NCBI RefSeq assembly: GCF_903970965.1
Contig: NZ_CAJCKW010000007.1
Coordinates: forward strand, 124,001-188,000
DNA from: Aureimonas sp. ME7
GTDB taxonomy: Bacteria; Pseudomonadota; Alphaproteobacteria; Rhizobiales; Rhizobiaceae
Length of the DNA stretch: 64,000 nucleotides
Direction: 5' to 3'
Numbering within the stretch: position 1 is the stretch's first letter; each line of letters opens with the position of its first letter. Both the position numbers and the translations under genes were made by a program. Of this stretch, positions 3,314 to 61,564 are shown piece by piece. The notes under the pieces were generated by a model. That model saw only the letters and a list, made by a program, of their open reading frames with translations. It had not been told where the DNA came from and ran no database searches.

Positions 3314-3315
3314 GG

Positions 3316-3500
3316 GGCTGGGGTCTTGGCGGGGCTGCCGCCCCGAGCCCCGCTCGGGAACGAATTCCCGAACCCTTCTTTTCTTTTGACAACAAAAAGG
3401 GGGCCAGCGGCCCCCTTTTTGTTGTCACACAAGATGAGGGGTCCAGGGGAAATCATTTCCCCTGGCGGGGTGCAGGGGTGGAACCCCTGCCAACACCCCC
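3316..3500. repeat. Intergenic mosaic of five perfect hairpins
   Basis: Between yjfF and the convergent malic enzyme lie five consecutive perfect inverted repeats: 3330-3345 (6-bp stem), 3355-3370 (6 bp), 3388-3426 (18 bp), 3443-3465 (11 bp, 1-base loop) and 3472-3490 (8 bp, 3-base loop). The composition alternates G-runs and C-runs. From memory, similar 'ccaggggaa...ttcccctgg' blocks are common between genes in Hyphomicrobiales and Rhodobacterales, so this may be a copy of a dispersed intergenic repeat. Confidence 0.7.
3388..3426. terminator. Bidirectional rho-independent terminator
   Basis: A perfect 18-bp stem with a 3-base loop (AGC). The arms contain an A-run followed by a G-run, mirrored as a C-run followed by TTTTTG. 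On either strand the stem ends in a T-tract, so it can stop both the rightward transporter transcript and the leftward malic enzyme transcript. Confidence 0.85.
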
Positions 3501-3508
3501 ACCGCCCT

Positions 3509-5788: not shown

Positions 5789-6040
5789 CGTCTTCCTCGC
5801 TCGTCGTTTCGCCCGGAAGCGCTCGGGCGACTCGCGGGGACCGCCGTTGTTTCGCGCCCTCCGCCCTGCGTCAACCAGTGATCTATGATGCGCCGCAGCG
5901 AGAAGAACGCGCATCGGTGCCGATGGATGGGCGGCTACGAAGTCACACTTACGATATCGGGTGGACACATGTGCCGAACGGCTTAGCTGTTCCTGTCTGT
6001 AACGGTTCCAAACGAGTGCCGTCCGCCGCGAGCGACATTC

Positions 6041-42715: not shown

Positions 42716-43411
42716 CTAGACCATCAGGTGCCGGCGCACCTCGGGCTCATCGAGATCGGCGCCGACGCCGCTGAACACGATGCGGCCCCGGTCGAGGATG
42801 TAGACCCGGTCGGCAAGCTCACGGCAGAAGTCGAGATACTGCTCGACCAGGAGAACCGCGATCCCCGCTTCCTGCTTGAGGTAGCGGATCGCCCGTCCGA
42901 TATCCTTGATGATCGAGGGCTGGATGCCCTCCGTCGGTTCGTCCAGGACCAGAAGGCGGGGCCGCGTGACGAGCGCCCGGCCGATGGCGAGCTGCTGCTG
43001 CTGGCCGCCCGACAGATCGCCCCCGCGCCGCCCGAGCATGGTCTTCAGAACCGGAAACAGCTCGAACACGTGCTCGGGGATCGTGCGCTCGGCGCCCTTC
43101 AGCGGCGCGAAGCCGGTGTGGAGGTTTTCGCGCACCGACAGGAGCGGAAACACCTCGCGCCCCTGCGGCACGAAGCCGATGCCGGCGCGCGCCCGCGCAT
43201 AAGGCGCGGCACTGCCGAGATCCTTCCCCTCCAGTTCGATGCGCCCGGCCCGGATCGCCTGCTGGCCGACGACCGCGCGCATCAACGAGGTCTTGCCGAC
43301 CCCGTTGCGCCCGAGGACGCAGGTGATCTCGCCCGCCTTCGCCTCCAGCGACACGCCGCGCAGCGCCTGCGCGGCGCCGTAGAACAGATCGACGTCGGAA
43401 ACTTTCAGCAT
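42716..43411 (-). CDS. urtE: Urea ABC transporter ATPase UrtE
   Basis: 231 residues, LivF-like. Walker A LGRNGVGKTS, FVPQGREVFPLLSVREN (Q-loop), signature LSGGQQQQLAIGRAL, Walker B LLVLDEPTEGIQPSI, the last being characteristic of UrtE. Last gene of urtABCDE. A 165-base gap, flanked by an inverted repeat, separates it from urtD. Confidence 0.95.
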   Translation of the reverse strand: MLKVSDVDLFYGAAQALRGVSLEAKAGEITCVLGRNGVGKTSLMRAVVGQQAIRAGRIELEGKDLGSAAPYARARAGIGFVPQGREVFPLLSVRENLHTGFAPLKGAERTIPEHVFELFPVLKTMLGRRGGDLSGGQQQQLAIGRALVTRPRLLVLDEPTEGIQPSIIKDIGRAIRYLKQEAGIAVLLVEQYLDFCRELADRVYILDRGRIVFSGVGADLDEPEVRRHLMV

Positions 43412-43414
43412 GTC

Positions 43415-43578
43415 AGCGCCCTTTCGAAGGATCGGCGGCGGAGGGTCGGTGAGGAATTTTTCGTCGTTCGGAAGGAGCCGAACTTGAGTGATGCCAGCGG
43501 CATCGGCGAGGATCGGGGACGCTCTGGCGGCGGAAAAGGCCCGCCGGACCGACCCGATCGATCGTTCGAAAGGGCGCT
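43415..43578. repeat. Inverted repeat flanking the urtD-urtE gap
   Basis: AGCGCCCTTTCGAA (43415-43428) recurs as its exact reverse complement at 43565-43578, and pairing resumes for five more bases after one mismatch. The right arm overlaps the urtD stop codon; the left arm lies just upstream of the urtE start. The transcript of the gap could fold into one long stem. Confidence 0.6.
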
Positions 43579-44416
43579 AGCGCCCCAGATAGACTTCGAT
43601 CACGCGCGGGTCGGCCGAGACCTGGTCGAGCGGACCTTCGGCGAGGACGTGCCCCTCGTGCAGGCAGGTGACCTTGACGTCCAGCATGCGCACGAAATGC
43701 ATGTCGTGCTCGACCACCACCACCGAACGGGTTTGCGCGATGCCCTTCAGGAGACGCGCGGTTTCCTCGGTTTCGGCATCGGTCATCCCGGCCACCGGCT
43801 CGTCGACGAGGAGAAGCTCGGGGTCCTGCGCGAGCAGCATGCCGATCTCCAGCCATTGCTTCTGGCCGTGGCTGAGGTCGGCGGCCGGCAGCGCGCGCTT
43901 TTCCCAGAGGCGCACGGTTCTTAAGATCTCCTCGATCCGCCCATCCTCTTCGGCGCCGCGCCGGTGAAGGAGGGCGGCGAAGATGCCCCGGTCGCCGGCG
44001 AGTGCCAGGCGCAGATTGTCCTCCACCGTGTGCCCTTCGAAGACGGTCGGCTTCTGGAACTTGCGCCCGATGCCGAGCCTTGCGATCCCGGCCTCGTCGT
44101 GGGCCGTGAGGTCGATGTCGCCGGCGAAGTAGACGTCGCCCCGATCGGGCCGCGTCTTGCCGGTGATGATGTCCATCATCGTGGTCTTGCCGGCGCCGTT
44201 CGGGCCGATGATGGCGCGCATCTCGCCGCGCGCGACGACGAGCGACAGGTCGTTGATCGCCCGGAACCCGTCGAAGCTCTTGGACACGCCGTCGAGGTAA
44301 AGCAGCGTTTCGCCGCGCGGCGCCTTCGCGGCGGCTTCGCGCTCGCGCCGCTCGGCCATGGCGGTGGCATAGGGGTGGGGCGAGACGCGGGGCGGGACGG
44401 CGGTTTCCGGGGTCAT
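43577..44416 (-). CDS. urtD: Urea ABC transporter ATPase UrtD
   Basis: 279 residues, LivG-like. Walker A GPNGAGKTT, RKFQKPTVFEGHTVEDNL (UrtD-typical), signature LSHGQKQWLEIGMLL and Walker B LLLVDEPVAGMTDAE. It pairs with UrtE to power urea uptake. Starts 5 bases after the urtC stop. Confidence 0.95.
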   Translation of the reverse strand: MTPETAVPPRVSPHPYATAMAERREREAAAKAPRGETLLYLDGVSKSFDGFRAINDLSLVVARGEMRAIIGPNGAGKTTMMDIITGKTRPDRGDVYFAGDIDLTAHDEAGIARLGIGRKFQKPTVFEGHTVEDNLRLALAGDRGIFAALLHRRGAEEDGRIEEILRTVRLWEKRALPAADLSHGQKQWLEIGMLLAQDPELLLVDEPVAGMTDAETEETARLLKGIAQTRSVVVVEHDMHFVRMLDVKVTCLHEGHVLAEGPLDQVSADPRVIEVYLGR

Positions 44417-44421
44417 CGAAC

Positions 44422-45582
44422 TCACTCCGCGGGGTTGGCGGCGGGGGCGGCCGCGCTGTCGTCGACGCCCTTTTCGGCGCGCGCGGCGCGGCGGCGCTCC
44501 GTCAAAGCCCGCCAGCCGCCGTCGATCGTGCCGACGATGCCGCGCGGGAGGAACAGGGTGACGAAGACGAAGAGGCCGCCGAGGATGAAGAGCCAGGCGT
44601 CCGGCGCGGCGGCGGTGAAATAACTCTTGCCGCCATTGACGAGGATCGCGCCGATCACCGGGCCGAGGATCGTCGCGCGCCCGCCCACCGCCGTCCAAAC
44701 CACGACCTCGATCGAGTTCAGCGGCGCGAACTCGCCGGGGTTCACGATGCCGACCTGCGGCACGTAGAGCGCCCCGGCGACGCCCGCCATCATCGCCGAC
44801 AGCGTGAAGGCGAAGAGCTTCACGTATTCCGGCTTCCAGCCGAGAAAGCGCGTGCGCCCTTCCGCGTCGCGCACCGCGATCATCAGGAGCCCGAGCTTGG
44901 AGCGCGTCACCGCGCCGACGAGAAGGACGCCCCCCGCCAGCGCGACAGCGGTCGCGGCGAACAGCCCGGCGCGCGTCGAGGCGGCCTGGAGGGGAGCTCC
45001 GAGGATTTCCTTGAAATCGGTCAGCCCGTTGTTGCCGCCGAACCCCATATCGTTGCGGAAGAAGGCGAGGAGGAGCGCGTAGGTCAGCGCCTGCGTGATG
45101 ATCGAAAGGTAGACGCCCGTCACCCGGGAGCGAAAGGCGAAGAAGCCGAACAGGAAGGCGAGAAGCCCCGGCACCAGCACCACCATAAGCGCGGCGAACC
45201 AGAACTGGTCGAACCCCTGCCAGAACCAGGGGAGTTCGCGGTAGTTCAGGAACACCATGAAGTCCGGCAGGTCGGGATTGCCGTAGACGCCGCGCGCCCC
45301 GATCTGGCGCATCAGGTACATTCCCATCGCGTAGGCCCCCAGAGCGAAGAACGCGCCGTGGCCGAGCGACAAGATGCCGACATAGCCCCAGACGAGGTCG
45401 AGCGAGAGCGCCAGCAGAGCGTAGGCCAGATACTTGCCGAGGAGCGGCACGAGGTGGTCCGGCACATGGAGCGGATGGCCGGGGGAGAGCCCGAGGTTGA
45501 GCGCGGGCACCAGAACGGCGGCGAGGAGGAGCGCCAGGGCCAGCCAGACGACGCGGGGTCCGAGAAGCCGAACGGTGATCAT
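44422..45582 (-). CDS. urtC: Urea ABC transporter permease UrtC
   Basis: 386 residues, LivM-like inner-membrane permease with about nine hydrophobic segments. Family blocks are YVGILSLGHGAFFALGAYAMGMY and NNGLTDFKEILG. The C-terminus is a polar, alanine-rich tail. ATG 45582 overlaps the urtB stop in ATGA. Confidence 0.95.
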   Translation of the reverse strand: MITVRLLGPRVVWLALALLLAAVLVPALNLGLSPGHPLHVPDHLVPLLGKYLAYALLALSLDLVWGYVGILSLGHGAFFALGAYAMGMYLMRQIGARGVYGNPDLPDFMVFLNYRELPWFWQGFDQFWFAALMVVLVPGLLAFLFGFFAFRSRVTGVYLSIITQALTYALLLAFFRNDMGFGGNNGLTDFKEILGAPLQAASTRAGLFAATAVALAGGVLLVGAVTRSKLGLLMIAVRDAEGRTRFLGWKPEYVKLFAFTLSAMMAGVAGALYVPQVGIVNPGEFAPLNSIEVVVWTAVGGRATILGPVIGAILVNGGKSYFTAAAPDAWLFILGGLFVFVTLFLPRGIVGTIDGGWRALTERRRAARAEKGVDDSAAAPAANPAE

Positions 45583-47198
45583 GCGTCCACGAACCTTCCC
45601 TTGAGGGCGAAGAGGCCGCGCGGCCGTTTCTGGATGAAGAGGATGATGAGGACGAGCACCACGATCTTGCCGAGAACGGCGCCGGCATAGGGCTCGAGGA
45701 ACTTGTTGACGAGGCCGAGCGACAGAGCACCGACGAGCGTGCCCCAGAGATTGCCGACCCCGCCGAACACCACCACCATGAAGCTGTCGATGATGTAGCC
45801 TTGCCCCAAGTCCGGCGAGACGTTGTCGATCTGGCTGAGCGCCACGCCCGCCATGCCGGCGATCCCGGAGCCGAGCGCGAAGGTCAGGGCGTCCACCATC
45901 GGCGTGCGGATGCCCATGGCGGCGGCCATGCGCCGGTTCTGGGTAACGGCGCGCATCTGGAGGCCCGCCGCCGTGCGGTTGAGTGCGAAGAGGAGCGCGG
46001 CGAAGACGACGGCTGCGAAGACGATGATCCACAGCCGATTCCAGGTGACGGCCATCTGCCCGATCTCGAAAGAGCCCGACATCCAGGACGGATTGGAAAC
46101 CTCCCGGTTGGTCGGCCCGAAGATCATACGGACCGCCTGCTGGAGGATCAGCGACACGCCGAAGGTGGCGAGCAGCGTTTCCAGCGGGCGGCCGTAGAGG
46201 AAGCGGATGACGCCGCGCTCGATCACGAAGCCGACGAAGCCTGCCACGAGGAACGCCATCGGAATGCTAAGCGCCAGCGACCAGTCCAGCCATTGCGGGG
46301 CGTGGTCGCGCATGGCTTGCTGGACGACGAAGGTCGTGTAGGCACCCAGCATCACCATCTCGCCATGCGCCATGTTGATGACGCCCATGACGCCGAAGGT
46401 GATGGCGAGGCCGATCGCGGCCAGCAGCAGGACGGAGCCGAGCGACAGCCCGTACCAGACGTTCTGCGCCTGCCCCCAGGCGGCGATCGTGGTGCGGATT
46501 GCGGCCGCTCCCTGTTCGGCCGCCGCGGCCACGGCCGGGTCCGCGTCGCTCGCAGCGGCCGTCAAGACGTTCAGCGCCGCGCGGTCGGAACGCTCGGCGA
46601 CCACGTGGACGGCTTCCAGCTTCTCGGCCGAAGGCCGGTCGGAGCGCAGGACGGCGACGGCGCGCGCCTGCGTGAGACGGCCGAGGATCGCCGGGTCGCT
46701 TTCGCGGTCGATCGCCGCGTCCAGCGTCGCGATCGCTTGCGGATCGGCGCGCTCGAAGAGAGCGGAGGCGGCGCGCAGGCGCTCGGCCGGGTCGGCGGAG
46801 CCGAGCGTCAGGCCGCCGAGCGCCTCAGCCACCAGCGTTCGGATGGAATTCTTGATGCGCACCTTTTCCAAGGCGCCCTTCGGCCGTTCGCCCAGCGCCT
46901 CGCCGGTCAAGGGGTCGCTGGCTGCGATGCCCGAACCGCTCGCCCGCCCGATCACGACCCGGCCACCGTCCTTCTCGTAGTAGAGATCGCCGTCGGCGAG
47001 AGCCCGGAGCGCGGGCGCCACCGCCGGATCGCCGGTCGCCGCCAGCGCTCCGATCGTCGCCTCGGTGTCGGCGAAGCTCTTCTTGCCGCCGAACTCCTGG
47101 ATCAGCGCGGCGGGATCCGCCCCTTGCGCCAATGCTGCGCCGGGAAGAGCTGCAAGGAGAAGGACAAGGGCGAGGAGCGCCCGAAACGTGCCGCTCAT
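45579..47198 (-). CDS. urtB: Urea ABC transporter permease UrtB
   Basis: 539 residues. A signal peptide (about 1-25) and a helical, HEAT-like periplasmic domain (about 26-240) precede the LivH-type permease domain with FGVMGVINMAHGEMVMLGAY. This long N-terminal domain is normal for UrtB and distinguishes it from LivH. The start has GGGAG upstream. Together with UrtC it forms the membrane channel. Confidence 0.95.
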   Translation of the reverse strand: MSGTFRALLALVLLLAALPGAALAQGADPAALIQEFGGKKSFADTEATIGALAATGDPAVAPALRALADGDLYYEKDGGRVVIGRASGSGIAASDPLTGEALGERPKGALEKVRIKNSIRTLVAEALGGLTLGSADPAERLRAASALFERADPQAIATLDAAIDRESDPAILGRLTQARAVAVLRSDRPSAEKLEAVHVVAERSDRAALNVLTAAASDADPAVAAAAEQGAAAIRTTIAAWGQAQNVWYGLSLGSVLLLAAIGLAITFGVMGVINMAHGEMVMLGAYTTFVVQQAMRDHAPQWLDWSLALSIPMAFLVAGFVGFVIERGVIRFLYGRPLETLLATFGVSLILQQAVRMIFGPTNREVSNPSWMSGSFEIGQMAVTWNRLWIIVFAAVVFAALLFALNRTAAGLQMRAVTQNRRMAAAMGIRTPMVDALTFALGSGIAGMAGVALSQIDNVSPDLGQGYIIDSFMVVVFGGVGNLWGTLVGALSLGLVNKFLEPYAGAVLGKIVVLVLIILFIQKRPRGLFALKGRFVDA

Positions 47199-47358: not shown

Positions 47359-48663
47359 TCAGTTGGAGGCCGTGGCGCCCGCGCCGCCGCACTTGCCGGT
47401 CTCGGTGTTGAAGTTTCCGCAGGACATCGGGGCGCGCCAGTCGGAGATGAGAGGCTTGGATTCGGGCAGGTAGTCCGACCATTCGTCGCCCAGCACCAGG
47501 CCCGAGGTCTCGTGCACCACCTCGAACTGGCCGTCGTCCTGGATCTCGCCGATCAGCACCGGCTTGGTGATGTGGTGGTTCGGCCCCATGGAGGAGTAGC
47601 CGCCCGTGAGGTTCGGCACCGAGACCCCGACCATCGCGTCGATGACCGCGTCCGTATCGGTCGTGCCGGCCGCTTCCACCGCCTTCACCCACATGTTGAA
47701 GCCGATATAGTGGGCCTCCATCGGGTCGTTGGTGACGCGCTTGTCGTTCTTGGTGAATTCACGCCACTTGGCGATGAACTCTTCGTTTTCCGGGGTGTCG
47801 ACGCTCTGGAAGTAGTTCCAAGCGGCGAGATGCCCGACCAGCGGCTTGGTGTCGATGCCGGCGAGTTCCTCTTCGCCGACCGAGAAGGCGACGACCGGGA
47901 TATCGCCCGCCGACACGCCCTGGTTGGCGAGTTCCTTATAGAACGGCACGTTGGCGTCGCCGTTGACGGTGGAGACCACCGCCGTCTTCTTGCCCGAGCC
48001 GCCGAACTCCTTGATCGACGACACCTCGGTCTGCCAGTCGGAGAAGCCGAAGGGCGTGTAGTTGACCTTGATGTCCTCCGCCGCGACGCCTTTGGACTTC
48101 AGGTAGGCTTCGAGAATCTTGTTGGTGGTGCGGGGGTAGACGTAGTCCGTCCCCTCCAGCACCCAGCGTTCGACGCCTTCCTCGATCAGGTAGTCGACGG
48201 CGGGAATGGCCTGCTGGTTGGGCGCCGCGCCCGTGTAGAACACGTTGCGCTCCGATTCTTCGCCCTCGTACTGGACGGGGTAGAACAGGATCGAGTTCAG
48301 CTCCTTGAACACCGGGAGCACCGACTTGCGCGACACGGAGGTCCAGCAACCGAAGACGGCGGCGACCTTGTCCTGCGCGATGAGGCCGCGCGCGCGCTCG
48401 GCGAAGAGCGGCCAGTCGGAGGCGGGGTCGACGACCACCGGCTCCAGCTTCTTGCCGAGAAGCCCGCCCTTCTTGTTCTGCTCGTCGATGAGCATCAGCA
48501 TGGCGTCCTTCAGCGTCGTCTCCGAGATCGCCATCGTGCCCGACAGCGAATGGAGGATACCGACCTTGATCGTGTCCTCCTGGGCGGCGGCGCTGAGCGT
48601 GGTGGCCAGGGTGGCGGCGGCATAGGCGCCGACGAGCCAACCGGCTTTGGTGGAAACTCGCAT
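47359..48663 (-). CDS. urtA: Urea-binding protein UrtA
   Basis: 434 residues with a Sec signal (about 1-27). Mature protein has the type I periplasmic fold of amide/urea binding proteins: VGILHSLSGTMAISE, VFGCWTSVSRKSVLPVF, LFYPVQYEGEE and PNHHITKPVLIGE are UrtA hallmarks. First gene of urtABCDE; its promoter lies in the 160-base region shared with the divergent transporter-kinase. Confidence 0.96.
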   Translation of the reverse strand: MRVSTKAGWLVGAYAAATLATTLSAAAQEDTIKVGILHSLSGTMAISETTLKDAMLMLIDEQNKKGGLLGKKLEPVVVDPASDWPLFAERARGLIAQDKVAAVFGCWTSVSRKSVLPVFKELNSILFYPVQYEGEESERNVFYTGAAPNQQAIPAVDYLIEEGVERWVLEGTDYVYPRTTNKILEAYLKSKGVAAEDIKVNYTPFGFSDWQTEVSSIKEFGGSGKKTAVVSTVNGDANVPFYKELANQGVSAGDIPVVAFSVGEEELAGIDTKPLVGHLAAWNYFQSVDTPENEEFIAKWREFTKNDKRVTNDPMEAHYIGFNMWVKAVEAAGTTDTDAVIDAMVGVSVPNLTGGYSSMGPNHHITKPVLIGEIQDDGQFEVVHETSGLVLGDEWSDYLPESKPLISDWRAPMSCGNFNTETGKCGGAGATASN

Positions 48664-48746: not shown

Positions 48747-48762
48747 TACGTCAAATGACGTA
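48747..48762. promoter_or_regulatory. Perfect 16-base palindrome in the urtA / transporter-kinase control region
   Basis: TACGTCAAATGACGTA: two perfect 7-base arms with a 2-base centre, about 84 bases before urtA and 62 before the kinase gene. The symmetry suits a dimeric LuxR/NarL-type regulator such as the one encoded at 52197. Assignment is inference. Confidence 0.55.
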
Positions 48763-48823: not shown

Positions 48824-51800
48824 ATGATCGGACGCCAGCGCATCCTGCCCGTTCGGCGCGAATACAACCGCTTCGTCGCCAACCAGACGCTGGAAGACTA
48901 CGCGCTGCGCTTCACCGCGAAATCCGCCCGGCGCTGGACGGCGGCGCGCGTGTCGCAGACGGCGATCGGGGCGATCTCGTTTCTGGCGCTCGAAGCCGTC
49001 GGCGGGGCGATCACACTGTCCTTCGGCTTCGCCAACGCGGTGGCCGCGATCCTCTGCGTCACGCTCGTCCTGTTCCTTACCGGCATCCCGATCAGCCTCT
49101 ATGCCGCGCGCCACGGCGTCGACATCGACCTTCTGACGCGGGGCGCGGGCTTCGGCTATATCGGCTCCACCGTCACCTCGCTGATCTACGCGACCTTCAC
49201 CTTCATCCTCTTCGCGGTGGAAGCCTCGATCATGACGGCGGCGCTCGAGCTCGCCTTCGGGCTGCCGCTGTGGATCGGCTACATCGTCTCGGCCGTCGTG
49301 GTGATCCCGCTCGTCACCCACGGCGTCACCTGGATCAGCCGCTTCCAGCTGTGGACGCAGCCGCTCTGGATCGGGCTGAACCTCCTGCCGATCGGCTTCA
49401 TCCTCTGGCACGACGCCGCATCGGTCGAGGCCTGGGTCGGCTTTCCCGGCCTCGATGCGACGGGCGGGGGCGGGCTCGACCTCCTCCAGTTCGGCGCGGC
49501 CGCTTCCGTCATCCTCGCCCTGATGCCGCAGATCGGCGAGCAGGTGGACATCCTGCGCTTCCTGCCGGCGCGGGGGCAGAAGCGCGGCTGGAACTGGTGG
49601 TTCTCGTTGTTCGCCGCCGGACCCGGCTGGATCGTTCTGGGGGCGCCCAAGCTCCTGTTCGGCTCGTTTCTCGCCGTCCTCGCGCTGCGCCACGGCATCT
49701 CGCCCGAACACGCGGCAGAGCCCGCCTACATGTATCAGGCGGCCTTCGGCTTCGTCCTGCCGTCGGAAACCGCGGTCCTGCTTCTCACCGCCGGCTTCGT
49801 GGTGGTGAGCCAACTCAAGATCAACGTGATGAACGCCTATGCGGGCTCGCTCGCCTGGTCGAACTTCTTTTCCCGCCTCACCCATTCCCATCCCGGCCGC
49901 GTCGTCTGGCTCGTCTTCAACGTCGCGATCGCGCTTCTTCTCATGGAGCTCGGCATCTACCGGGCGCTGGAGGTGACGTTCGGCCTTTTCGCCAACGTCG
50001 CCGTCGCCTGGCTCGGCGCCATCGTCGCCGATCTGGCGATCAACAAGCCGCTGGGACTGTCCCCGCCCGGCATCGAATTCAAGCGCGCCCATCTCTACGA
50101 CCTCAACCCCGTCGGCCTCGGCTCCATGGGGCTGGCGACGCTCCTTTCGCTCGTCGCCTTCGGCGGAGCCTTGGGCGAGATGGCGCAGGCGCTGTCCGCC
50201 TTCGTGGCGCTCGGCACCGCGCTCGTCGTAGCGCCCCTCATCGCCTGGGGCACGGGTGGGCGCTACTATCTCGCCCGGCGTCCTCGCGCCGAATGGGCGA
50301 GCCGGGCGTCGATTGCCTGTTCGATCTGCGAACATCCGTTCGAGCCCGAGGACATGGCCTATTGCCCGGCCTATGCCGCGCCGATCTGCTCGCTCTGCTG
50401 CTCGCTCGACGCGCGCTGCCACGATCTCTGCAAACCGCACGCGCGCTTCGCAGCCCAAGCCGCCGGCTTTGCGGAGGCTGTCCTGCCCGAGCGCGTGGTG
50501 CGGCGGATCGATTCGCGCACCGGGCGCTATCTCGGCGGCTTCGCGCTTCTGGCCGGCGTCATCTCGATCGTGCTCGGCCTGATCTACTATCAGGCGACCC
50601 TGGCGAGCCCGAACGACACCGAGACGATCGCCGCCGCGCTTTGGGCCGCCTTCTTCATCCTCCTCATCGTGTCGGGCATCGCCACCTGGTTCTTCGTTCT
50701 GGCGCAGGAATCGCGCCGCGTCGCGCAGGAGGAATCGGCGCGCCAGACGAGCCTTCTTCTGAAGGAGATCGCCGCCCACCGACGCACCGACGCAGCCCTC
50801 CAGGCCGCCAAGGAGCGGGCGGAGGCGGCAAGCCTTGCCAAGAGCCGATACGTCGTCGGCATGAGCCACGAGCTGCGCACGCCGCTGAACGCCGTCCTCG
50901 GCTATGCCCAGCTTCTGGAAGGGGACGCGGCCATTCCGCCGGAACGGGCGGGCGGCATCCGCACCATCCGCCGCTCGGCCGAGCACCTGTCCGGCCTCAT
51001 CGACGGCATTCTCGACATCTCGCGCATCGAGACCGGCCGCCTCGCGCTCCAGCCGGCCGACGTGCGCCTGCCCGACTTCCTCGCCCAGATCGTCGACATG
51101 TTCCGCCTCCAGGCGAGCGCCAAGGGGCTGGAGTTCCGCTTCGAGCGCCCCGCCCATCTTCCCGAAATCGTGCGCACGGACGAGAAGCGGCTGCGCCAGA
51201 TCCTGATCAACCTCCTGTCCAACGCGGTGAAATATACCGAAGAGGGAACGGTGACACTCAAGGTCGACTATCGCAGCCAGGTCGCGACGATCAGCGTCAC
51301 CGACACCGGCCCCGGCATCGCCGAGCCCGAGCAGGCGCGCATCTTCGAGCCTTTCGAGCGGGGGGATGCGGCGCGCGGCAAGCTGCCGGGCCTCGGCCTC
51401 GGGCTGACGATCACCCGTCTCCTCGCCAGCCTGATGGGCGGCGATGTTTCGATGCGGAGCCGGCCGGGCGAGGGCAGCCGGTTCGAGCTTCGCATGATGC
51501 TGTCGAGCGTCGCGCCCCACGTGGCCCGGCCGGCGACGAGCGAAACATCCGAGGCGCCCGCGCGCGTCCACGGCTATCTCGGCCCCCGGCGCACGGTGCT
51601 GGTGGTGGACGACGACGAGGCGCATCGCGAGCTGATGGTCGAGGTCCTGCGACCGCTGGGCTTCATCGTGCTGACCGCCGGCGACGGGCCGACCGCGCTC
51701 GGCCTCGTCGCCGAGATCCGGCCGGACCTGTTCCTCCTCGACATCCAGATGCCGAGCATGGACGGCTGGACGCTCGCCCGCGCGCTTCGCGATGCCGGTC

Positions 51801-52204
51801 AGACCGGCGCCGTCCTGATGCTGTCGGCAACGCTCGCCGAAATGCCGCCGCCCGGCTCCGACGGCGACGATCCCTCGATCGACGGTGCGCTGCCCAAACC
51901 CGTCGATCTCCGGAGCCTTCTCGCCCGCATCGGCACCGCGCTCGACCTCGAATGGTCGCAAGGATCCCCCGCGCCCGGCGAGGCGCCCGCCCCCGCCGGC
52001 CCGATGCGCCGCCCGCCGCCGGCCGACATCGCCGAGCTCGCCCGCCTCGGCCGGATCGGCTTCGCCAGCGGGGTCGAGCGCAAGCTGGAGGCGCTCGGCG
52101 CCGATCCCGCCTTGCGCGATTTCGCCGCGGCCCTCAGGGTTCGGGCGGAAGCCTTCGACTGGAAGGGCTTCGGCCGGCTTCTGGAGAGCGAAGGCGATGA
52201 CTAG
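48824..52204 (+). CDS. NCS1 transporter - hybrid histidine kinase fusion (transceptor)
   Basis: 1126 residues. Residues about 20-470 form an NCS1-type nucleobase/allantoin permease with some 12 membrane segments (GAISFLALEAVGGAITLSFG near the N-terminus). Next comes a cysteine-rich module (Cys499 to Cys536, starting CSICEHPFEPEDMAYC), two more membrane segments (about 565-620) and a coiled linker. Then a HisKA domain with phospho-acceptor His682 (GMSHELRTPLNA), an HATPase (NLLSNAVKY, DTGPGIAEPEQ, GLGLGLTI) and a receiver with Asp973 (LFLLDIQMPSMDGW). Likely senses a transported or bound nitrogen compound and signals to the LuxR regulator that overlaps it by 8 bases. Resembles CbrA in concept, but with an NCS1 rather than SSS transporter. 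Confidence 0.88.
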   Translation: MIGRQRILPVRREYNRFVANQTLEDYALRFTAKSARRWTAARVSQTAIGAISFLALEAVGGAITLSFGFANAVAAILCVTLVLFLTGIPISLYAARHGVDIDLLTRGAGFGYIGSTVTSLIYATFTFILFAVEASIMTAALELAFGLPLWIGYIVSAVVVIPLVTHGVTWISRFQLWTQPLWIGLNLLPIGFILWHDAASVEAWVGFPGLDATGGGGLDLLQFGAAASVILALMPQIGEQVDILRFLPARGQKRGWNWWFSLFAAGPGWIVLGAPKLLFGSFLAVLALRHGISPEHAAEPAYMYQAAFGFVLPSETAVLLLTAGFVVVSQLKINVMNAYAGSLAWSNFFSRLTHSHPGRVVWLVFNVAIALLLMELGIYRALEVTFGLFANVAVAWLGAIVADLAINKPLGLSPPGIEFKRAHLYDLNPVGLGSMGLATLLSLVAFGGALGEMAQALSAFVALGTALVVAPLIAWGTGGRYYLARRPRAEWASRASIACSICEHPFEPEDMAYCPAYAAPICSLCCSLDARCHDLCKPHARFAAQAAGFAEAVLPERVVRRIDSRTGRYLGGFALLAGVISIVLGLIYYQATLASPNDTETIAAALWAAFFILLIVSGIATWFFVLAQESRRVAQEESARQTSLLLKEIAAHRRTDAALQAAKERAEAASLAKSRYVVGMSHELRTPLNAVLGYAQLLEGDAAIPPERAGGIRTIRRSAEHLSGLIDGILDISRIETGRLALQPADVRLPDFLAQIVDMFRLQASAKGLEFRFERPAHLPEIVRTDEKRLRQILINLLSNAVKYTEEGTVTLKVDYRSQVATISVTDTGPGIAEPEQARIFEPFERGDAARGKLPGLGLGLTITRLLASLMGGDVSMRSRPGEGSRFELRMMLSSVAPHVARPATSETSEAPARVHGYLGPRRTVLVVDDDEAHRELMVEVLRPLGFIVLTAGDGPTALGLVAEIRPDLFLLDIQMPSMDGWTLARALRDAGQTGAVLMLSATLAEMPPPGSDGDDPSIDGALPKPVDLRSLLARIGTALDLEWSQGSPAPGEAPAPAGPMRRPPPADIAELARLGRIGFASGVERKLEALGADPALRDFAAALRVRAEAFDWKGFGRLLESEGDD

Positions 52205-53132
52205 GGAGACGAACCCCGGCGACGACGGACACGCGCTCGTCCTCGTGGTGGACGATTCGCCGGACACGCTGCGCCTTCTGACCGACGCGATCGAGCGCAC
52301 GGGGGCGAGCGTCCTCGTGGCGCTGGACGGCGAACAGGCGCTCGGCATCGCCGCCGAGATCACCCCGGACGTCGTCTTGATGGACGCGGTGATGCCGGGG
52401 ATGGGCGGGTTCGAAACGACGCGGCGCCTCAAGGCCGATCCGGCGCTGGCCCATGTCCCGGTGATCTTCATGACCGGACTGAACGACACCGAGCATGTCG
52501 TTCGGGGCCTGGAGGCGGGCGGCGTCGACTATGTCGTCAAGCCGATCGTACCCGACGAGATCCTGGCGCGCATCCGCGTCCATCTCGCCAACGCCCGCGC
52601 GGCGCAGACGACGCGCGCCGCGCTCGACACGGCGGGCCGCTTCCTGTTCGCCGCCGATGGCGCGGGGCACGTCCTGTGGGCGACGCCCCAGGCGGCGAGG
52701 CTCCTGGGAGAAGCGCTGGGCGGGCCCGGCACCGATCTCGTGCTGCCGCCGGACCTCGGCGCCTGGCTCGCGGCGGGCGCCGATCCCGGCGCGGTGCCGC
52801 CGGGCGGCTGGAGGCTCACCCCCCCCGGCGGGGTCCGCCTCGCCCTCGCGCTTCTCGGCACGTCCGCACCCGGCGAACACCTGTTTCGCCTCACCGTCGA
52901 CGATGCCTCCGCCGACGAGGCGCACCTGCGGGCCCGGTTCGGCCTCACCGCGCGCGAGGCCGACGTCGTCCTCTGGCTGGCGCGCGGCAAGGCCAACCGC
53001 GACATCGCCGAGATTCTGGCTCTCAGCCCGCGCACTGTGAACAAGCATCTGGAAGTCGTCTTCGCCAAGCTCGGCGTCGAGAACCGCGCCTCGGCCACCT
53101 TCCTGGTGATGAAGACGCTCGGCGAGCGCTAG
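52197..53132 (+). CDS. LuxR/FixJ-type response regulator
   Basis: 311 residues. Receiver domain about 14-135 with phospho-acceptor Asp63 (VVLMDAVMPGMGG) and the Lys in DYVVKPI. A middle PAS-like region (about 140-240) follows, then a LuxR helix-turn-helix (about 248-311, LTAREADVVLWLARGKANRDIAEIL). The ATG overlaps the kinase gene end, so they are a cognate pair. Probable targets are urtABCDE and itself. Confidence 0.9.
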   Translation: MTRETNPGDDGHALVLVVDDSPDTLRLLTDAIERTGASVLVALDGEQALGIAAEITPDVVLMDAVMPGMGGFETTRRLKADPALAHVPVIFMTGLNDTEHVVRGLEAGGVDYVVKPIVPDEILARIRVHLANARAAQTTRAALDTAGRFLFAADGAGHVLWATPQAARLLGEALGGPGTDLVLPPDLGAWLAAGADPGAVPPGGWRLTPPGGVRLALALLGTSAPGEHLFRLTVDDASADEAHLRARFGLTAREADVVLWLARGKANRDIAEILALSPRTVNKHLEVVFAKLGVENRASATFLVMKTLGER

Positions 53133-53348: not shown

Positions 53349-53606
53349 GACGGTTCCCCGACACGAGACGTCGAGGGGATGAAAAGGGAACACGGTGAGG
53401 CCGACCCAATCGGGGCCGAGACCGTGGCTGCCCCCGCAACTGTGAGCGGATGTCGTCCATCCCCGCCTTTCGGCCTTGCGACAGGCCAGAAGGCGGCGGG
53501 CCGCCGGAGCCTTTCCGGCGCCATGCCACTGCCAGGCCCCATTGGGGCTCTGGCGGGAAGGCAGATGGGCGGCGCATTCCATCCGCGAGCCAGGAGACCT
53601 GCCGTC
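53349..53606 (+). ncRNA. Cobalamin (B12) riboswitch
   Basis: All sequence hallmarks are in order: closing stem GACGG/CCGTC (53349-53353 with 53602-53606), AAAAGGGAA then ACGGTG (53382-53397), the B12 box GCTGCCCCCGCAACTGTGAG (53427-53446), GCCACTG (53525-53531), GGGAAGGCAGATGGGC (from 53556) and GAGCCAGGAGACCTGCC (53587-53603). An 8-bp hairpin with one G-U pair (53612-53631) followed by TTCCTTC may be the terminator it controls. High cobalamin should lower expression of the ABC operon downstream. Confidence 0.92.
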
Positions 53607-53787
53607 GAAACGAAGTGCTCTTCAGCGCTTCTTCCTTCACGCCATTCGAGCGGGGATGCTCGGAAAGGACGCCCATGACGGCCCCCATCTCGCGCGCGGC
53701 TCGCCCGCGCCATTCCCTTGTCGTTCGCTGGCTGCGCGAAGCGGCCGGTCTGCGCCGATCCTCGAACGATACCCCCTTCCCTTCAGG

Positions 53788-53806
53788 TTTGTTATTTTAT
53801 AACAAA
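53788..53806. promoter_or_regulatory. Zur-like operator before the ABC operon
   Basis: TTTGTTATTTTATAACAAA: perfect 8-3-8 palindrome containing TGTTAT-N3-ATAACA, the core of the classical proteobacterial Zur box. Its right flank (ATAACAAAACAT) is identical to that of the site before aztD at 63242. It lies between the riboswitch and the GTG at 53837. Confidence 0.65.
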
Positions 53807-53836
53807 ACATCGATCGCATCGACGAAGGGTTTCTCT

Positions 53837-54865
53837 GTGTCCGCCACCGCCTTCCCGCGCCTTGCCGCCGGTCTCGCCCTTGCCGCCTTCCTCCTGCCCG
53901 CCGGCAACGTTTGGGCGGCACAGACCGCCTATCCGCTCCGCCTCGAGAATTGCGGCCACACCCTCACGTTTTCGAAAGCGCCCGAGCGTGCGGTCTCGAT
54001 CGGGCAGTCCACGACGGAAATCCTCTATCTCCTCGGCCTCGCCGACAAGGTGGCGGGCACCGCGCTCTGGGTCGGCCCCGTCCTGCCCGAGTTCGCGGCG
54101 GCGAATGCCAAGGTGAAGCGCTTGGCCGACAACGATCCGAGCTTCGAAAGCGTCGTCGCGGAGCGGCCCGACCTCGTGACCACCCAGTTCGAATGGCAGG
54201 TCGGCCCGCAAGGGGTCGTGGCGACCCCCGAACAGTTCGAGGAGCTCGGCATTCCCGTCTACACCTCGCCGGCCGACTGCGAGGGCAAGGACAATTCGGC
54301 CGGCGGCGACGGCACCCGCACCAGGACCTTCACGCTCGACCTCGTTTATCGCGAGATCGAGGACCTCGCCCGCATCTTCGACCGAGAGGATCGCGGCGCC
54401 GAGCTCGTGGCCGACCTCAAGGCGCGCGAGGCGGCGGCCAAGGCGAAGATCACCAACCTCCGGCCGGGCACATCCGCCGTGTTCTGGTTTTCCTCGGCCG
54501 AACTCGACATCGACCCCTATGTCGCCGGGCAAAGCGGCGCGCCGGGATACATCATGTCGCGTCTCGGCGTGCGGAACATCATCGACAGCCAGGAGGAATG
54601 GCCGACGGTCGGGTGGGAAACGATCGCGCGCGCCGATCCGACCGTGATCGTGGCGGGCGCGATGGACCGCCGCCGCTTTCCCGCCGACGACGTGGCCGTG
54701 AAGCGGCAGTTTCTGGCTGAAGACCCCGTCGCCAGCCTCATGCCGGCGGTGCGCGAAGGCCGTGTCGTCGAGATGGACGCGCAGGCGATGAACCCGACGA
54801 TCCGCACGATCGACGGCATCGAGGTGCTGGCGGATGCGCTCGAAAAGGCAGGCCTCGCCCGGTGA
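53837..54865 (+). CDS. BtuF/FecB-type ABC substrate-binding protein
   Basis: 342 residues from GTG 53837 (GAAGGG 7 bases upstream), giving a clean Sec signal (about 1-28, cleaved at VWAAQ). Mature protein has the two-lobe helical-hinge fold: APERAVSIGQSTTEILYLLGLADKVAGTA, PDLVTTQFEWQ, a Cys pair (Cys in LENCGHTL and PADCEGKD) and ARADPTVIVAG. Substrate is probably a corrinoid or a metal chelate. The frame stays open to an ATG at 53678, which also has a ribosome site and could make a longer protein from the riboswitch transcript. First gene of a five-gene operon. Confidence 0.85.
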   Translation: MSATAFPRLAAGLALAAFLLPAGNVWAAQTAYPLRLENCGHTLTFSKAPERAVSIGQSTTEILYLLGLADKVAGTALWVGPVLPEFAAANAKVKRLADNDPSFESVVAERPDLVTTQFEWQVGPQGVVATPEQFEELGIPVYTSPADCEGKDNSAGGDGTRTRTFTLDLVYREIEDLARIFDREDRGAELVADLKAREAAAKAKITNLRPGTSAVFWFSSAELDIDPYVAGQSGAPGYIMSRLGVRNIIDSQEEWPTVGWETIARADPTVIVAGAMDRRRFPADDVAVKRQFLAEDPVASLMPAVREGRVVEMDAQAMNPTIRTIDGIEVLADALEKAGLAR

Positions 54866-55908
54866 CGCCCCCCCGCCGTCAGGCGCTCCATCTCGCCCTG
54901 TGGAGCGCCGGCGCGCTCGCCCTCGTTCTCGCCGCCCTATTCTTCGGGGCGGCGGTCGGGGAAACGCGCATTCCGCTCGCCACCGTCTGGCAGACGCTCG
55001 CCAACCGCCTGTGGGGCGCCGGCTATCCCTTGGATGCGATCGACATGGGCATCGTCTGGAACTACCGCCTGCCGCGCGCCGTCGTGGCGGCCGCCTGCGG
55101 CGCGGCGCTTGGGGTTTCCGGCGCCGTTCTCCAGTCGCTCCTGCGCAACGCGCTGGCCGACCCCTATCTCCTCGGGCTTTCGGCCGGCGCTTCCACCGGC
55201 GCGGTGGCGGTGGCGATTCTGGGGCTTGGCGCGGGCGCCCTCTCCTTGTCCGCCGGCGCGCTCGTCGGCGCGCTCCTCGCCTTCGCCCTCGTGGCGGGTC
55301 TCAGCATCCTTGCCGGGCGTGGCCCCGCCGCGATCATCCTCGCCGGCATCGCCGGCTCGCAGCTCTTCAACGCGCTGACATCCTTCGTCGTCACCAAGTC
55401 GGCGACGGCCGAGGAAGCGCGCGGCATCATGTTCTGGCTGCTCGGCAACCTGTCGGGCGTGCGCTGGCCCGATGCGGGGCTGGCCGTTCCGGTCGCGCTT
55501 CTGGGGCTCGCCCTCTGCCTTCTCCATGCCCGCGCGCTCGACGCCTTTGCCTTCGGCGCATCGGCGGCGGCCGCTCTCGGCATTCCCGTTCGCTGGGTGC
55601 GCGCCGCGCTGATTGGCGCCACCGCGCTGATGACGGCGGTGATGGTGTCGATCGTGGGCTCGATCGGCTTCGTCGGCCTCGTCATCCCGCATGCCGCCCG
55701 GCTCGTGGTCGGCACGGCGCATCGCACGCTCCTGCCCGCGTCCGCGCTGATCGGCGCCGTGTTCCTGATCGCGGCGGACGTCCTGTCGCGGACCCTCATT
55801 CCCGGCCAGGTCCTGCCCATCGGCGTGATGACGGCACTGGTCGGCGCCCCGGCCTTCGCTGTGATTCTGATCCATCGCCCGGTCGGGGCGGGGAGCACGC
55901 CGCGATGA
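54862..55908 (+). CDS. FecCD/BtuC-type ABC transporter permease
   Basis: 348 residues, about ten membrane helices. Family blocks are RLPRAVVAAACGAALGVSGAVLQSLLRNALADPYLLGLSAGAS in effect (residues about 68-115), IGSIGFVGLVIPHAARL and ADVLSRTL. GTG start overlaps the binding-protein stop. Forms a homodimeric channel for a chelate or corrinoid. Confidence 0.92.
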   Translation: MTPPRRQALHLALWSAGALALVLAALFFGAAVGETRIPLATVWQTLANRLWGAGYPLDAIDMGIVWNYRLPRAVVAAACGAALGVSGAVLQSLLRNALADPYLLGLSAGASTGAVAVAILGLGAGALSLSAGALVGALLAFALVAGLSILAGRGPAAIILAGIAGSQLFNALTSFVVTKSATAEEARGIMFWLLGNLSGVRWPDAGLAVPVALLGLALCLLHARALDAFAFGASAAAALGIPVRWVRAALIGATALMTAVMVSIVGSIGFVGLVIPHAARLVVGTAHRTLLPASALIGAVFLIAADVLSRTLIPGQVLPIGVMTALVGAPAFAVILIHRPVGAGSTPR

Positions 55909-59473: not shown

Positions 59474-61564
59474 CTATCCCGCCGCGTCCGGCCCCGCGAT
59501 CATCGCGCGCACCTTGGCGCCGAGCGCGTCGTATTCGAAGGGCTTGCCGATGAGGTCCATGCCCTCGTCCAGGAACTCGCCGCGCACGGACGCCGTTTCC
59601 GCATAGCCCGTCACGAACAGGATCTTCAAATCCGGCCGGAGCCGGCGCGCGATCTCGGCGAGCTGGCGCCCGTTCATGCCCGGCAGCCCGACATCGGTGA
59701 CCATGAGATCGATGCGCGCGCCCGACTGGAGGATCGGCAGCGCGTCGTCGGCGCTTCCCACCTCGATCGGCTGGTAGCCGAGATCGGCGAGAACGTCGGT
59801 GATCAGCATGCGCACCAGCCCCTCGTCCTCGACGATGAGGACGCTTTCGCCCTCGCCGGCCGGCGCTTCGCGCATCTCGGCTTCTTCGACGGCGGCGGTG
59901 GCGACCTCGAGCGGCAGGAGAAGCCGGATCGTGGTGCCCCGCCCTTCCTCGCTGTCGATCGCGACATGGCCGCCGGACTGGCGCGCGAAGCCGTAGATCT
60001 GCGACAGGCCGAGGCCCGTCCCCTGCCCGATCGGCTTGGTGGTGAAGAAGGGCTCGAACGCCTTGGCCAAGGTTTCGGGCGACATGCCCGTGCCCGTGTC
60101 GGACACCGACAGGACCACGAACTCGCCCGGCCCGAAGCGAGGCCCCGCCTCGTCCGGCCCCGCCCGGCGCACCGCGATGGTGAGCCGCCCGCCGTCCGGC
60201 ATCGCGTCGCGCGCGTTGATCGCGAGGTTCAGGAGCGAGTTCTCGAGCTGGCTGACGTCGGTGCGCGCGACGAGCGCCTCTGCGCCGAGCTCGGTCACGA
60301 TCTCGATGTTCTCGCCGAGCGTGCGGCGCAGGAGATCCTCCATGCCGCCGACGATGGCCTTCAGATCCACCGGCACCAGGTCGAGCGACTGGCGCCGGCC
60401 GAAGGCGAGAAGGCGCGAGGTCAGGGTCGCCGCCCGCCCCGCCGCCTGGGACGCGTTGTCGATGTAGCGCGGCAGGGCCGCGTAGTCGCCCCGCTCCCAG
60501 CGTCGGCGCATCAGATCGAGCGATCCGATGACGCCTGCCAGCATGTTGTTGAAGTCGTGCGCGATGCCGCCCGTCAGCTGGCCGATCGCCTCCATCTTCT
60601 GCGACTGGCGCAGCGCGTCCTCGACGCCCTCGCGCCGCGTCATCTCGGCCGAAAGCTCGGCGGTGCGCTCGGCGACGCGCCCTTCCAGCATGGCCGCCGC
60701 CTCGCGCAGGTCGTTTTCCAGCCGCTTGCGCTCGGTGATGTCGAGAACGAAGATGTGAAACCCGTCGACCCCGCCGCCTACGTCGAAGCGCGGGAGATAG
60801 CGCACCTCGGCCAGGCGGTCGTCGCCGCGCCCGCCATAGCCGGAGAACCGCGTCTCCGTCTGGAAGACCTCGCCCCGCAGCGCCATGGCGACGCCTTCGC
60901 GGCGCGTTTCGAACGCTTCCGCCCCCAGGAGCTGGGGGATGGTCAGCCCGATCACCGCGTCCGGCTCGAAGCCGAACCAGTCCTCGTAGGCCCGGTTGGC
61001 GAAGCGGTAGACGAGATCGCGGTCCACGAAGGCAATGAGGACGGGCAAGGAATCCGCGACGAGACGAAGCTGGCGCTCGCTGGCGGCCAGAGCCTCGCGG
61101 CTGAGCGTCAGTTCGGCCAGCCGGTCGCGCATCTCGAACTGCTTCTGGCGCGCGCGCATCACGGAAGCCAGCGAGGACACGAGCGATTCGATACCGAGCG
61201 GGCGCTCCAGGGTCACGATGTTGGTGACGCTTCCCGGCAGGATGCGGCGGAACCGGTCCACCGGTTCCGAGGGCCCCGAACGGCGCGAGGCGAGAAGCAC
61301 CACCGGAATGTCGGACCATTCCGGCTGCACGGTTAGGGCTCGGGTCAGGGCCTCCGCCCCCGCCTGCAGCGCTTCTTCCGTCAGGAGCACGGCACCGACG
61401 GCCTGCCCCTCGTCCTGCGCCATGCGGGCGCCGAGCGTTCGCAGATCGCCCGTCAGTTCGGCGCTGTAGCCCTCGCGCTGGAGAACACCCACCAAGCTCT
61501 CCCCGTCACGCCCGAACGGCGCGCAGACGAGAACCTGAAAGCCTCGCACTCCCCGCCTATGCAC
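59474..61564 (-). CDS. Hybrid sensor histidine kinase
   Basis: 696 residues, no membrane segment, so a cytoplasmic sensor. A divergent receiver-like N-terminus (about 8-130), PAS domain (about 165-285), HisKA with His336 (GGIAHDFNNMLAG), HATPase (about 440-555, LLNLAINARDAMPDGG, GTGLGLSQIYG), and a C-terminal receiver with Asp624 (LMVTDVGLPGMNG). GTG start at 61564 overlaps the KaiC-like gene by 8 bases and has GGAAG upstream. The overlap ties it functionally to that ATPase. Confidence 0.9.
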   Translation of the reverse strand: MHRRGVRGFQVLVCAPFGRDGESLVGVLQREGYSAELTGDLRTLGARMAQDEGQAVGAVLLTEEALQAGAEALTRALTVQPEWSDIPVVLLASRRSGPSEPVDRFRRILPGSVTNIVTLERPLGIESLVSSLASVMRARQKQFEMRDRLAELTLSREALAASERQLRLVADSLPVLIAFVDRDLVYRFANRAYEDWFGFEPDAVIGLTIPQLLGAEAFETRREGVAMALRGEVFQTETRFSGYGGRGDDRLAEVRYLPRFDVGGGVDGFHIFVLDITERKRLENDLREAAAMLEGRVAERTAELSAEMTRREGVEDALRQSQKMEAIGQLTGGIAHDFNNMLAGVIGSLDLMRRRWERGDYAALPRYIDNASQAAGRAATLTSRLLAFGRRQSLDLVPVDLKAIVGGMEDLLRRTLGENIEIVTELGAEALVARTDVSQLENSLLNLAINARDAMPDGGRLTIAVRRAGPDEAGPRFGPGEFVVLSVSDTGTGMSPETLAKAFEPFFTTKPIGQGTGLGLSQIYGFARQSGGHVAIDSEEGRGTTIRLLLPLEVATAAVEEAEMREAPAGEGESVLIVEDEGLVRMLITDVLADLGYQPIEVGSADDALPILQSGARIDLMVTDVGLPGMNGRQLAEIARRLRPDLKILFVTGYAETASVRGEFLDEGMDLIGKPFEYDALGAKVRAMIAGPDAAG

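Follow-up and report, generated by a model that had tools for sequence, protein, structure and literature searches.

What does a histidine kinase sense when it is fused to a transporter domain, and which genes does it control? This question is raised by a locus in a stretch of 64,000 nucleotides (nt) from Aureimonas sp. ME7 (contig NZ_CAJCKW010000007.1, positions 124,001 to 188,000 of the forward strand; hereafter the window), in which one gene joins an NCS1-type permease to a hybrid histidine kinase and diverges from the urea importer operon urtABCDE. The protein represents a widespread NCS1-type kinase, which probably senses urea or short amides and controls the adjoining operon; a palindrome accompanies it in the urt branch and in many formamidase-type branches. 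The fusion, its parts and its partner are as follows.

48824-52204, plus strand: NCS1-type permease/hybrid histidine kinase fusion, 1126 residues (open frame, Pfam, relatives).
48887-50263, plus strand: NCS1-fold membrane domain, residues about 22-480 (BLASTP to a stand-alone PF02133 protein; predicted model against CodB and Mhp1).
50318-50431, plus strand: eight-cysteine module, residues 499-536, probably metal-binding (eight Cys in 125/125 homologues).
50516-50713, plus strand: two extra hydrophobic helices, residues about 565-594 and 596-630, preceding the kinase (model and alignment).
50840-51037, plus strand: HisKA domain with His682, residues 673-738 (Pfam).
51176-51496, plus strand: HATPase_c domain, residues 785-891 (Pfam).
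51596-51931, plus strand: receiver (Response_reg) with Asp973, residues 925-1036 (Pfam).
52197-53132, plus strand: response regulator of 311 residues with a receiver and a LuxR/GerE DNA-binding domain (Pfam).

The initial annotation had described a single frame uniting a permease, a Cys-rich module, a kinase core and a receiver, and we found this frame open over its whole length with its Pfam domains in place. The protein has the composition of a hybrid histidine kinase, namely HisKA with its His, HATPase_c, and a receiver with its Asp. The two phospho-acceptors lie where they had been placed, and among the homologues His682 is His in 125/125 and Asp973 is Asp in 122/125. In addition, each of the eight cysteines of residues 499-536 occurs in all 125, and their conservation suggests that the module is probably metal-binding. 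Pfam returned no transporter-side or metal-site model and nothing meaningful for the module, and PDB sequences gave one chance-level match (expectation value, E, 2.4). Nothing in Pfam matched between permease and kinase, in a comparison that included no STAC model or structure. The layout first proposed, a permease, then the Cys module, then the kinase, stands with one addition, since two more hydrophobic helices follow the Cys module. Furthermore, the ATG of the regulator (52197) lies inside the last codons of the kinase gene, as an overlap of 8 nt, and the regulator carries the receiver and GerE domain of the NarL/FixJ type (LuxR type). A sequencing or assembly error fusing two genes had been considered at the outset; it is ruled out by intact fusions in 19 of 41 genomes and in named genomes.

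On the other side of the fusion, the presumed target operon runs divergently.

47359-48663, minus strand: UrtA, urea-binding protein, divergent presumed target (TIGR03407, 556 bits, cut-off 492.75).
45579-47192, minus strand: UrtB permease, extended at the N terminus, start codon uncertain (TIGR03409, over cut-off).
44422-45579, minus strand: UrtC permease, start codon uncertain (TIGR03408, over cut-off).
43577-44413, minus strand: UrtD ATPase, start codon uncertain (TIGR03411, over cut-off).
42716-43411, minus strand: UrtE ATPase (TIGR03410, over cut-off).

Thus, all five UrtABCDE subunits pass the NCBIfam cut-offs on the minus strand, as the initial annotation had read them. The urease alpha subunit of this genome is encoded elsewhere, on contig C9.

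To what extent is the fusion linked to urt? Among 41 genomes, the own genome included, a full-length fusion without internal stops was found in 19, and UrtA over the cut-off was present in all 19 of these, which bears out the expectation that fusion and urt co-occur in relatives. A further 12 genomes had UrtA without the fusion, and 10 had neither (Fisher p 7e-4, kinship ignored; the genomes are related and their counts are not independent). In 17 of the 19 fusion genomes, the neighbouring UrtA was 76-95 percent identical to that of the window (the own one counted as identical). In the other two, G012 and G014, the figure fell to 42 percent for an adjacent UrtA of the formamidase type, and a second, window-like urtA was found elsewhere in both. 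Over a larger set of 99 loci (L011-L109), we found a divergent UrtA in 97 and a same-strand regulator in 98; L016 and L030 are one record, and the deduplicated counts are 96 and 97 of 98. The exceptions were L029 (both genes) and L100 (UrtA). It should be noted that 80 of these 99 loci are the best 80 of 574 confirmed matches from one search, and close kin dominate among them.

Beyond these relatives, a match in an open frame of at least 899 residues was found in 52 of 398 genomes of a Pseudomonadota sample, own genome included; another three hits were permeases without a kinase and one was a short fragment, and these are not counted. Of the 57 strong places in that search, 43 neighbourhoods were read besides that of the window.

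By reading the upstream regions of the kinase genes, we noticed a palindrome, TACGTCAnnTGACGTA, which lies between kinase and urtA. In the window it forms the following feature.

48747-48762, no strand given: predicted operator TACGTCAAATGACGTA, between kinase and urtA (motif counts across loci and genomes).

The word counted was TACGTC-N4-GACGTA, with 12 scored letters. In 142 distinct kinase upstream regions, at least 10 of the letters were matched in 84 and at least 11 in 75, and shuffles of 143 regions gave 0.7 and 0.0, respectively. The motif was derived from part of the loci later counted, and the real control is given by loci and genomes without the fusion. Upstream of UrtA, 117 of the 131 loci with the fusion reached at least 10 letters (97 of the 101 whose UrtA resembles that of the window, and 20 of the 30 of the formamidase kind), compared with 0 of 13 UrtA loci without the fusion (Fisher p 2e-11, from undeduplicated counts and ignoring kinship). 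These 13 control loci (L184-L196) comprise the 12 UrtA-only genomes and the second urtA of G012. A perfect site was present in 15 of the 19 fusion genomes, each with a copy between kinase and urtA, and in 0 of the 22 others; in the window's genome, the copy at 48747-48762 is the only perfect one, and one further copy has one mismatch. Where kinase and urtA lie apart, a site of at least 11 letters was found upstream of urtA instead at most of the listed loci. In addition, a relaxed form, TACG-N8-CGTA, occurred at 22 of 30 formamidase-type loci (0.06 expected), and at L149 and L161 a site precedes the called start of FmdA by 105-109 nt; at L161 it is the sole strict site. The palindrome thus co-occurs with the fusion and stays beside urtA, and it is probably the operator of the partner regulator. 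We take its layout to be a NarL-like 7-2-7 arrangement.

The sign of this control is a separate matter. The regulator might repress urt, with the signal relieving repression; the sign cannot be read from sequence, and when the DNA separating kinase and urtA was scanned for promoters and terminators, none emerged, including no sigma-70-type promoter by which the site could be placed. The centre of the site lies a median of 99 nt from the UrtA start (start estimated by blast; gene starts elsewhere are first start codons, so that distances to starts are rough), and a centre about 100 nt upstream suits an activator. Furthermore, CrbR has its site between -52 and -36 of a promoter that is activated (PMC5715377). 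We therefore consider repression quite improbable.

Other copies of the palindrome were also located. The one-mismatch copy of the window's genome (G000, contig C24) lies inside a long frame. Genome G007 carries a second perfect palindrome (L220, position 4668) where one frame ends, with the next frame starting 31 nt beyond it, and not upstream of any nameable urea gene. At L100 (7723-12357), kinase, regulator and palindrome stand together, and the divergent neighbour encodes a DUF2793 protein.

Which substrates do the neighbouring operons handle? Neighbour genes were clustered over 140 loci and gene identities were named on representatives. Context labels were then scripted from UrtA identity to that of the window and from gene clusters; L201, L202, L203, L173 and L174 were assigned from annotation or clusters. 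Of 125 kinases, 84 had a urt context, 28 a UrtA-type ATP-binding cassette (ABC) importer of the formamidase kind, 9 a urease context, 3 a formamidase without ABC importer, and 1 another context; the count of 84 is inflated, because one search returns the closest matches. In the phylum sample, 42 loci had a usable kinase (L140-L179 minus L154, plus L197-L199), and 25 of these fell in the formamidase-type context, 9 in the urease context, 6 in the urt context and 2 in the formamidase-only context. A urease gene was within the stretch at 34 of the 84 urt loci, and UreC was present at 9 of 9 urease loci. Meanwhile, a formamidase or amidase gene accompanied 25 of the 28 formamidase-type loci (23 by cluster, L201 and L203 by annotation), and none was found at the other three (L151, L167, L172) within the stretch and gene calls used. 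One of the three loci with formamidase but no ABC importer adjoins an AmiS/UreI channel. The shared theme of the kinase neighbourhoods is urea and short amides.

This theme bears on the ligand first proposed. The initial annotation saw a transceptor that senses a purine, allantoin or hydantoin as urea precursor and switches on urea uptake. Its regulatory half is retained, as control of urtA is probable. Its ligand half has one argument in the fold shared with CodB and Mhp1, carriers of cytosine and hydantoins. However, the neighbour operons handle urea, formamide or amides, and no nucleobase or hydantoin pathway was seen among 28 neighbour clusters read by eye. In addition, the residues on which rings would stack are replaced, although the position in transmembrane helix 3 (TM3) is Phe in 42 of 125 homologues. 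Since the neighbours centre on urea and short amides, urea itself or a small amide is a likelier ligand than a purine, allantoin or hydantoin, and we regard the sensing of such a precursor, or of a nucleobase, as very unlikely.

In a tree of 63 kinases, the contexts require 7 changes, whereas shuffled labels require 30 on average. The urt context requires 3 changes, all of them forced by well-supported branches, and the urease context requires 2, one of them so forced. The linkage counts and this tree rule out a chance neighbourhood of kinase and urt. Furthermore, G198, G265, G286 and G418 each contain two paralogues, one in a formamidase context and one in a urease context. These pairs, which divide by substrate inside one genome, are hard to reconcile with a kinase that reports nitrogen status (ammonium or its lack) and whose permease domain does hardly more than anchor it. 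Ammonia is a product of every neighbouring operon, and a kinase built on an ammonium transporter does exist (PMC5764959), which would suit such a role; nevertheless, the polar residues at the probable ligand site do not vary, which also suggests a pocket that has been kept, and we find nitrogen sensing improbable.

It is also conceivable that the kinase does not bind urea but monitors how active the ABC importer is, or its loaded binding protein UrtA. The ABC importer is the commonest neighbour, and sensing via partner transporters is known in general (PMC5715377). However, the urease and formamidase-only kinases have no adjacent divergent UrtA-type importer, a point tempered by two of the nine urease loci (L158 and L165), where UrtA lies 6-10 kb further on, on the same strand. 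Such indirect sensing seems unlikely to us.

If urea or a short amide is bound directly, the membrane domain should be examined. The initial annotation had called it an NCS1 permease. PF02133 (NCS1) did not match residues 1-568 in 14 homologues up to E 5; in that Pfam search, the 14 rows gave six weak unrelated matches with a best E of 0.12, and the listing to E 5 is incomplete, as HMMER filters discard most matches above E 0.1. A PDB profile search with the same residues met chance-level chains only (E 2.8 and worse). The family was nevertheless recognised indirectly. A stand-alone relative of 497 residues, L180, met in the profile search of the 398 phylum genomes, is a PF02133 member (36.4 bits, cut-off 23.5), and BLASTP aligned it to window residues 21-488 with 27 percent identity (E 7e-34, single comparison). 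A predicted model of residues 1-640 from 33 rows reached a predicted local distance difference test score (pLDDT) of 83.5 and a predicted template modelling score of 0.84, and it was used for structural matching; a first model (14 rows, full length) had a pLDDT of 68.5. The top matches of the 1-640 model were CodB and Mhp1, both by Foldseek and by VIA-align, with VIA Z of 32.4 for CodB and 25.8-28.5 for Mhp1. The next chain scored 23.1 and SLC5-type chains such as CHT1 scored 21. Because the best model matches are CodB and Mhp1 and PF02133 is silent, the modelled fold is NCS1-type, from a remote branch beyond the reach of the Pfam model. There is no direct PF02133 match; therefore, we file the domain as NCS1-related, not as an ordinary NCS1 symporter. 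An SLC5 domain, and with it membership of the SLC5/STAC kinases, was rejected, since the four best structures are all NCS1 and the nearest stand-alone kin belongs to PF02133.

L180 (1949-5168), the nearest stand-alone NCS1 protein among those found, adjoins a CN_hydrolase (carbon-nitrogen hydrolase) protein with two matched stretches.

In CodB, the Thr278 and Thr279 hydroxyls help to hold Na+, and Trp108 is the residue against which cytosine stacks (PMC9379551). We mapped these residues onto the fusions by profile alignments at about 16 percent identity. The Thr278 position is Lys332 in 125/125 homologues and the Thr279 position is Ile333 in 124/125. The position of Trp108, the TM3 Trp of CodB and Mhp1, is Leu129, with 83 Leu, 42 Phe and 0 Trp, and that of Phe204, the aromatic of TM6, is Met234, with Met, Val or Ile in 120/125 and an aromatic residue in none. 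According to this alignment, neither the Na2 hydroxyls nor the ring-stacking aromatics of CodB are kept in the fusions. The ordinary NCS1 proteins L181 and L182 carry Trp and Phe at the Trp108 and Phe204 positions, which supports the register of the alignment. Because the profile of the PDB search behind the mapping included L181 and L182, the E-values of that search cannot serve as independent evidence for the fusions. At the position of Lys332, the stand-alone L180 carries Arg. In addition, Glu57, Thr126, Glu133, Gln236, Glu239, Gln240, Asp242, Arg245, Asn334 and Asn337 are invariant in the 125 homologues; as these are mostly close kin, the invariance is partly shared descent. In our reading, the domain has preserved a pocket for a ligand that is small, polar and without rings, and it has no classical Na+ site; transport with another ion is possible.

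Based on these results, we propose that the fusion acts as a membrane receptor of the transporter-fused kinase kind. The ligand of the NCS1-fold domain would be urea, and for the domains of sister groups it would be formamide or some other short amide. The resulting change of shape would run through the Cys module and the two further helices to the dimerisation helices and alter the phosphorylation of His682. The phosphate would then pass, probably directly, to the partner LuxR-type regulator, and the kinase's own receiver may serve as a brake or buffer. The phosphorylated regulator would bind TACGTCAnnTGACGTA about 100 nt upstream of urtA and turn urtABCDE on. In this scheme, architecture, gene linkage and palindrome placement come from the sequence and the fold from the model; we infer the ligand, the direction of regulation, the phosphotransfer route and the regulator as the palindrome-binding protein. 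Taken as a whole, from urea or short-amide receptor kinase through regulator and palindrome to activation of urtABCDE, the proposal seems to us rather likely to be right. A further step is tentative: an NCS1-fold protein may have turned into a dedicated urea and short-amide receptor by losing the Na+ site and the ring-stacking residues and gaining two features, a Lys that does not vary where the Na+ site had been and a polar pocket of Glu, Gln and Asn. The result would be a large family with branches specialised for operons of urea uptake, urease or formamide, every branch having a LuxR-type regulator of its own.

The direct transfer was considered together with a histidine phosphotransfer (HPt) step. 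No invariant His follows the receiver among the 125 homologues, and position 1068, which is His in 83 of them, is Asp in the window protein; therefore, an HPt step is unlikely in the window protein. Three short homologues of 874-885 residues (L173, L174 and L202) apparently end ahead of the receiver (judged from where their alignments end and from column 973), which suggests that the receiver is not essential to the family. All three adjoin a formamidase, and downstream of L202 come a separate receiver-HisKA-HATPase protein and a regulator of the OmpR type. At L029 (genome G026, 1078-5917), a distant kinase fragment is cut by the contig end and is followed by an 843-residue frame with a receiver-like start; it is possibly of the receiver-less kind.

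Several observations weigh against the proposal. First, the fusion is not required for urt, because 12 of the 31 UrtA genomes lack it, and the distant fragment of G026 (40 percent identity, scored as no fusion) belongs to a genome without UrtA over the cut-off. The kinship of the genomes and the low identity behind the residue mapping count on the same side. Second, the TIGR03407 cut-off is passed also by UrtA of formamidase-type operons and thus cannot separate urea from amide importers. Third, the palindrome does not follow the kinase everywhere. In the urease group the strict site was found in 0/9 and the relaxed one in 2/9, and the strict site was found in 0/3 formamidase-only loci. Upstream of UrtA, 10 of 30 formamidase-type loci fell below 10 letters, as did L147, L162 and L166, urt loci outside the class. 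The urease on contig C9 has no site within one mismatch, and L100 has no urtA within its 19.7 kb stretch. Finally, the word read backwards, as a control, turned up in 6 of the 41 genomes; one perfect chance match is thus nothing unusual, and it is the placement that counts.

How does the fusion compare with known systems? CrbS/CrbR, CbrA/CbrB (PMC7096432) and RpuS/RpuR, the SLC5/STAC kinases, likewise join a transporter domain to a kinase. CrbS and RpuS are, as the fusion is, hybrid kinases with LuxR-type regulators, and activation by CrbR requires an inverted repeat; the fusion loci carry a repeat at the target promoter too, known here from sequence. However, the transporter domain of those kinases is SLC5 and not NCS1-type, they have STAC and PAS where the fusion has the eight-Cys module and two helices, and their operator sequence and target operons are different. 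The ammonium sensor kinase Ks-Amt5 (PMC5764959) is another case of a transporter that became a kinase sensor, and it lost transport; it differs in its Amt fold, its ligand and the absence of a receiver domain. CodB and Mhp1 share the fold with the fusion, in which Thr278/Thr279 of CodB became Lys/Ile and the ring-stacking residues were replaced.

The gene pair has already appeared in print. A histidine kinase (hybrid or other) with a LuxR-type or CheY-like regulator is listed beside urt in Ectopseudomonas guguanensis G3 (PMC13296017) and Dechloromonas aromatica RCB (PMC2907700), and urtABCDE with formamidase and amidase genes, for which formamide uptake was suggested, in Pseudomonas veronii Yu15 (PMC13209695). 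These three genome papers, compared by description only, give labels in the parts available, with no permease domain, ligand or operator. In the openly accessible literature, judged mostly by title and the start of the abstract, we found no description of an NCS1-type histidine kinase or of this sensor and its site. Thus, the initial annotation's view of an undescribed system applies to the sensor, and the gene pair had been listed without interpretation.

If the proposal is true, it would supply a sensor, its partner and a DNA site open to testing for the use of urea and formamide across a wide range of Pseudomonadota. To our knowledge, few urea sensors are known in these bacteria. Furthermore, we know of SLC5 and Amt as the only folds in transporter-fused kinases, and NCS1 would be the third, with a ligand class beyond the usual NCS1 range.

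Homologous kinases are also carried on plasmids. Among plasmid records at E 1e-100, at least 80 percent of the protein was covered in 500 of 520, and 340 of the 520 were from Klebsiella (338 of 504 at E 1e-150). Plasmids of Sinorhizobium meliloti also carry homologues, with an identity of about 58 percent. The Klebsiella plasmid operon was read in one record, L201 (Klebsiella pneumoniae plasmid NZ_LR890344.1, 5909-15354), where a homologous kinase stands with urtABCDE and a nitrilase-type formamidase; the plasmid is typed as conjugative. A recent preprint (PMC13060141) discusses the transporter of this operon in a urinary lineage, and the terms histidine kinase, response regulator and two-component are absent from its text.

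Within the window, UrtB (45579-47192) has about 240 additional N-terminal residues with a weak HEAT match, and at most formamidase loci the UrtB-like matches span residues 248-533 only. Downstream of the regulator gene, 53564-55908 encodes the periplasmic binding protein and a FecCD permease of an ABC importer. In addition, a second hybrid histidine kinase (PAS, HisKA, HATPase and receiver) is encoded at 59474-61564 on the minus strand.

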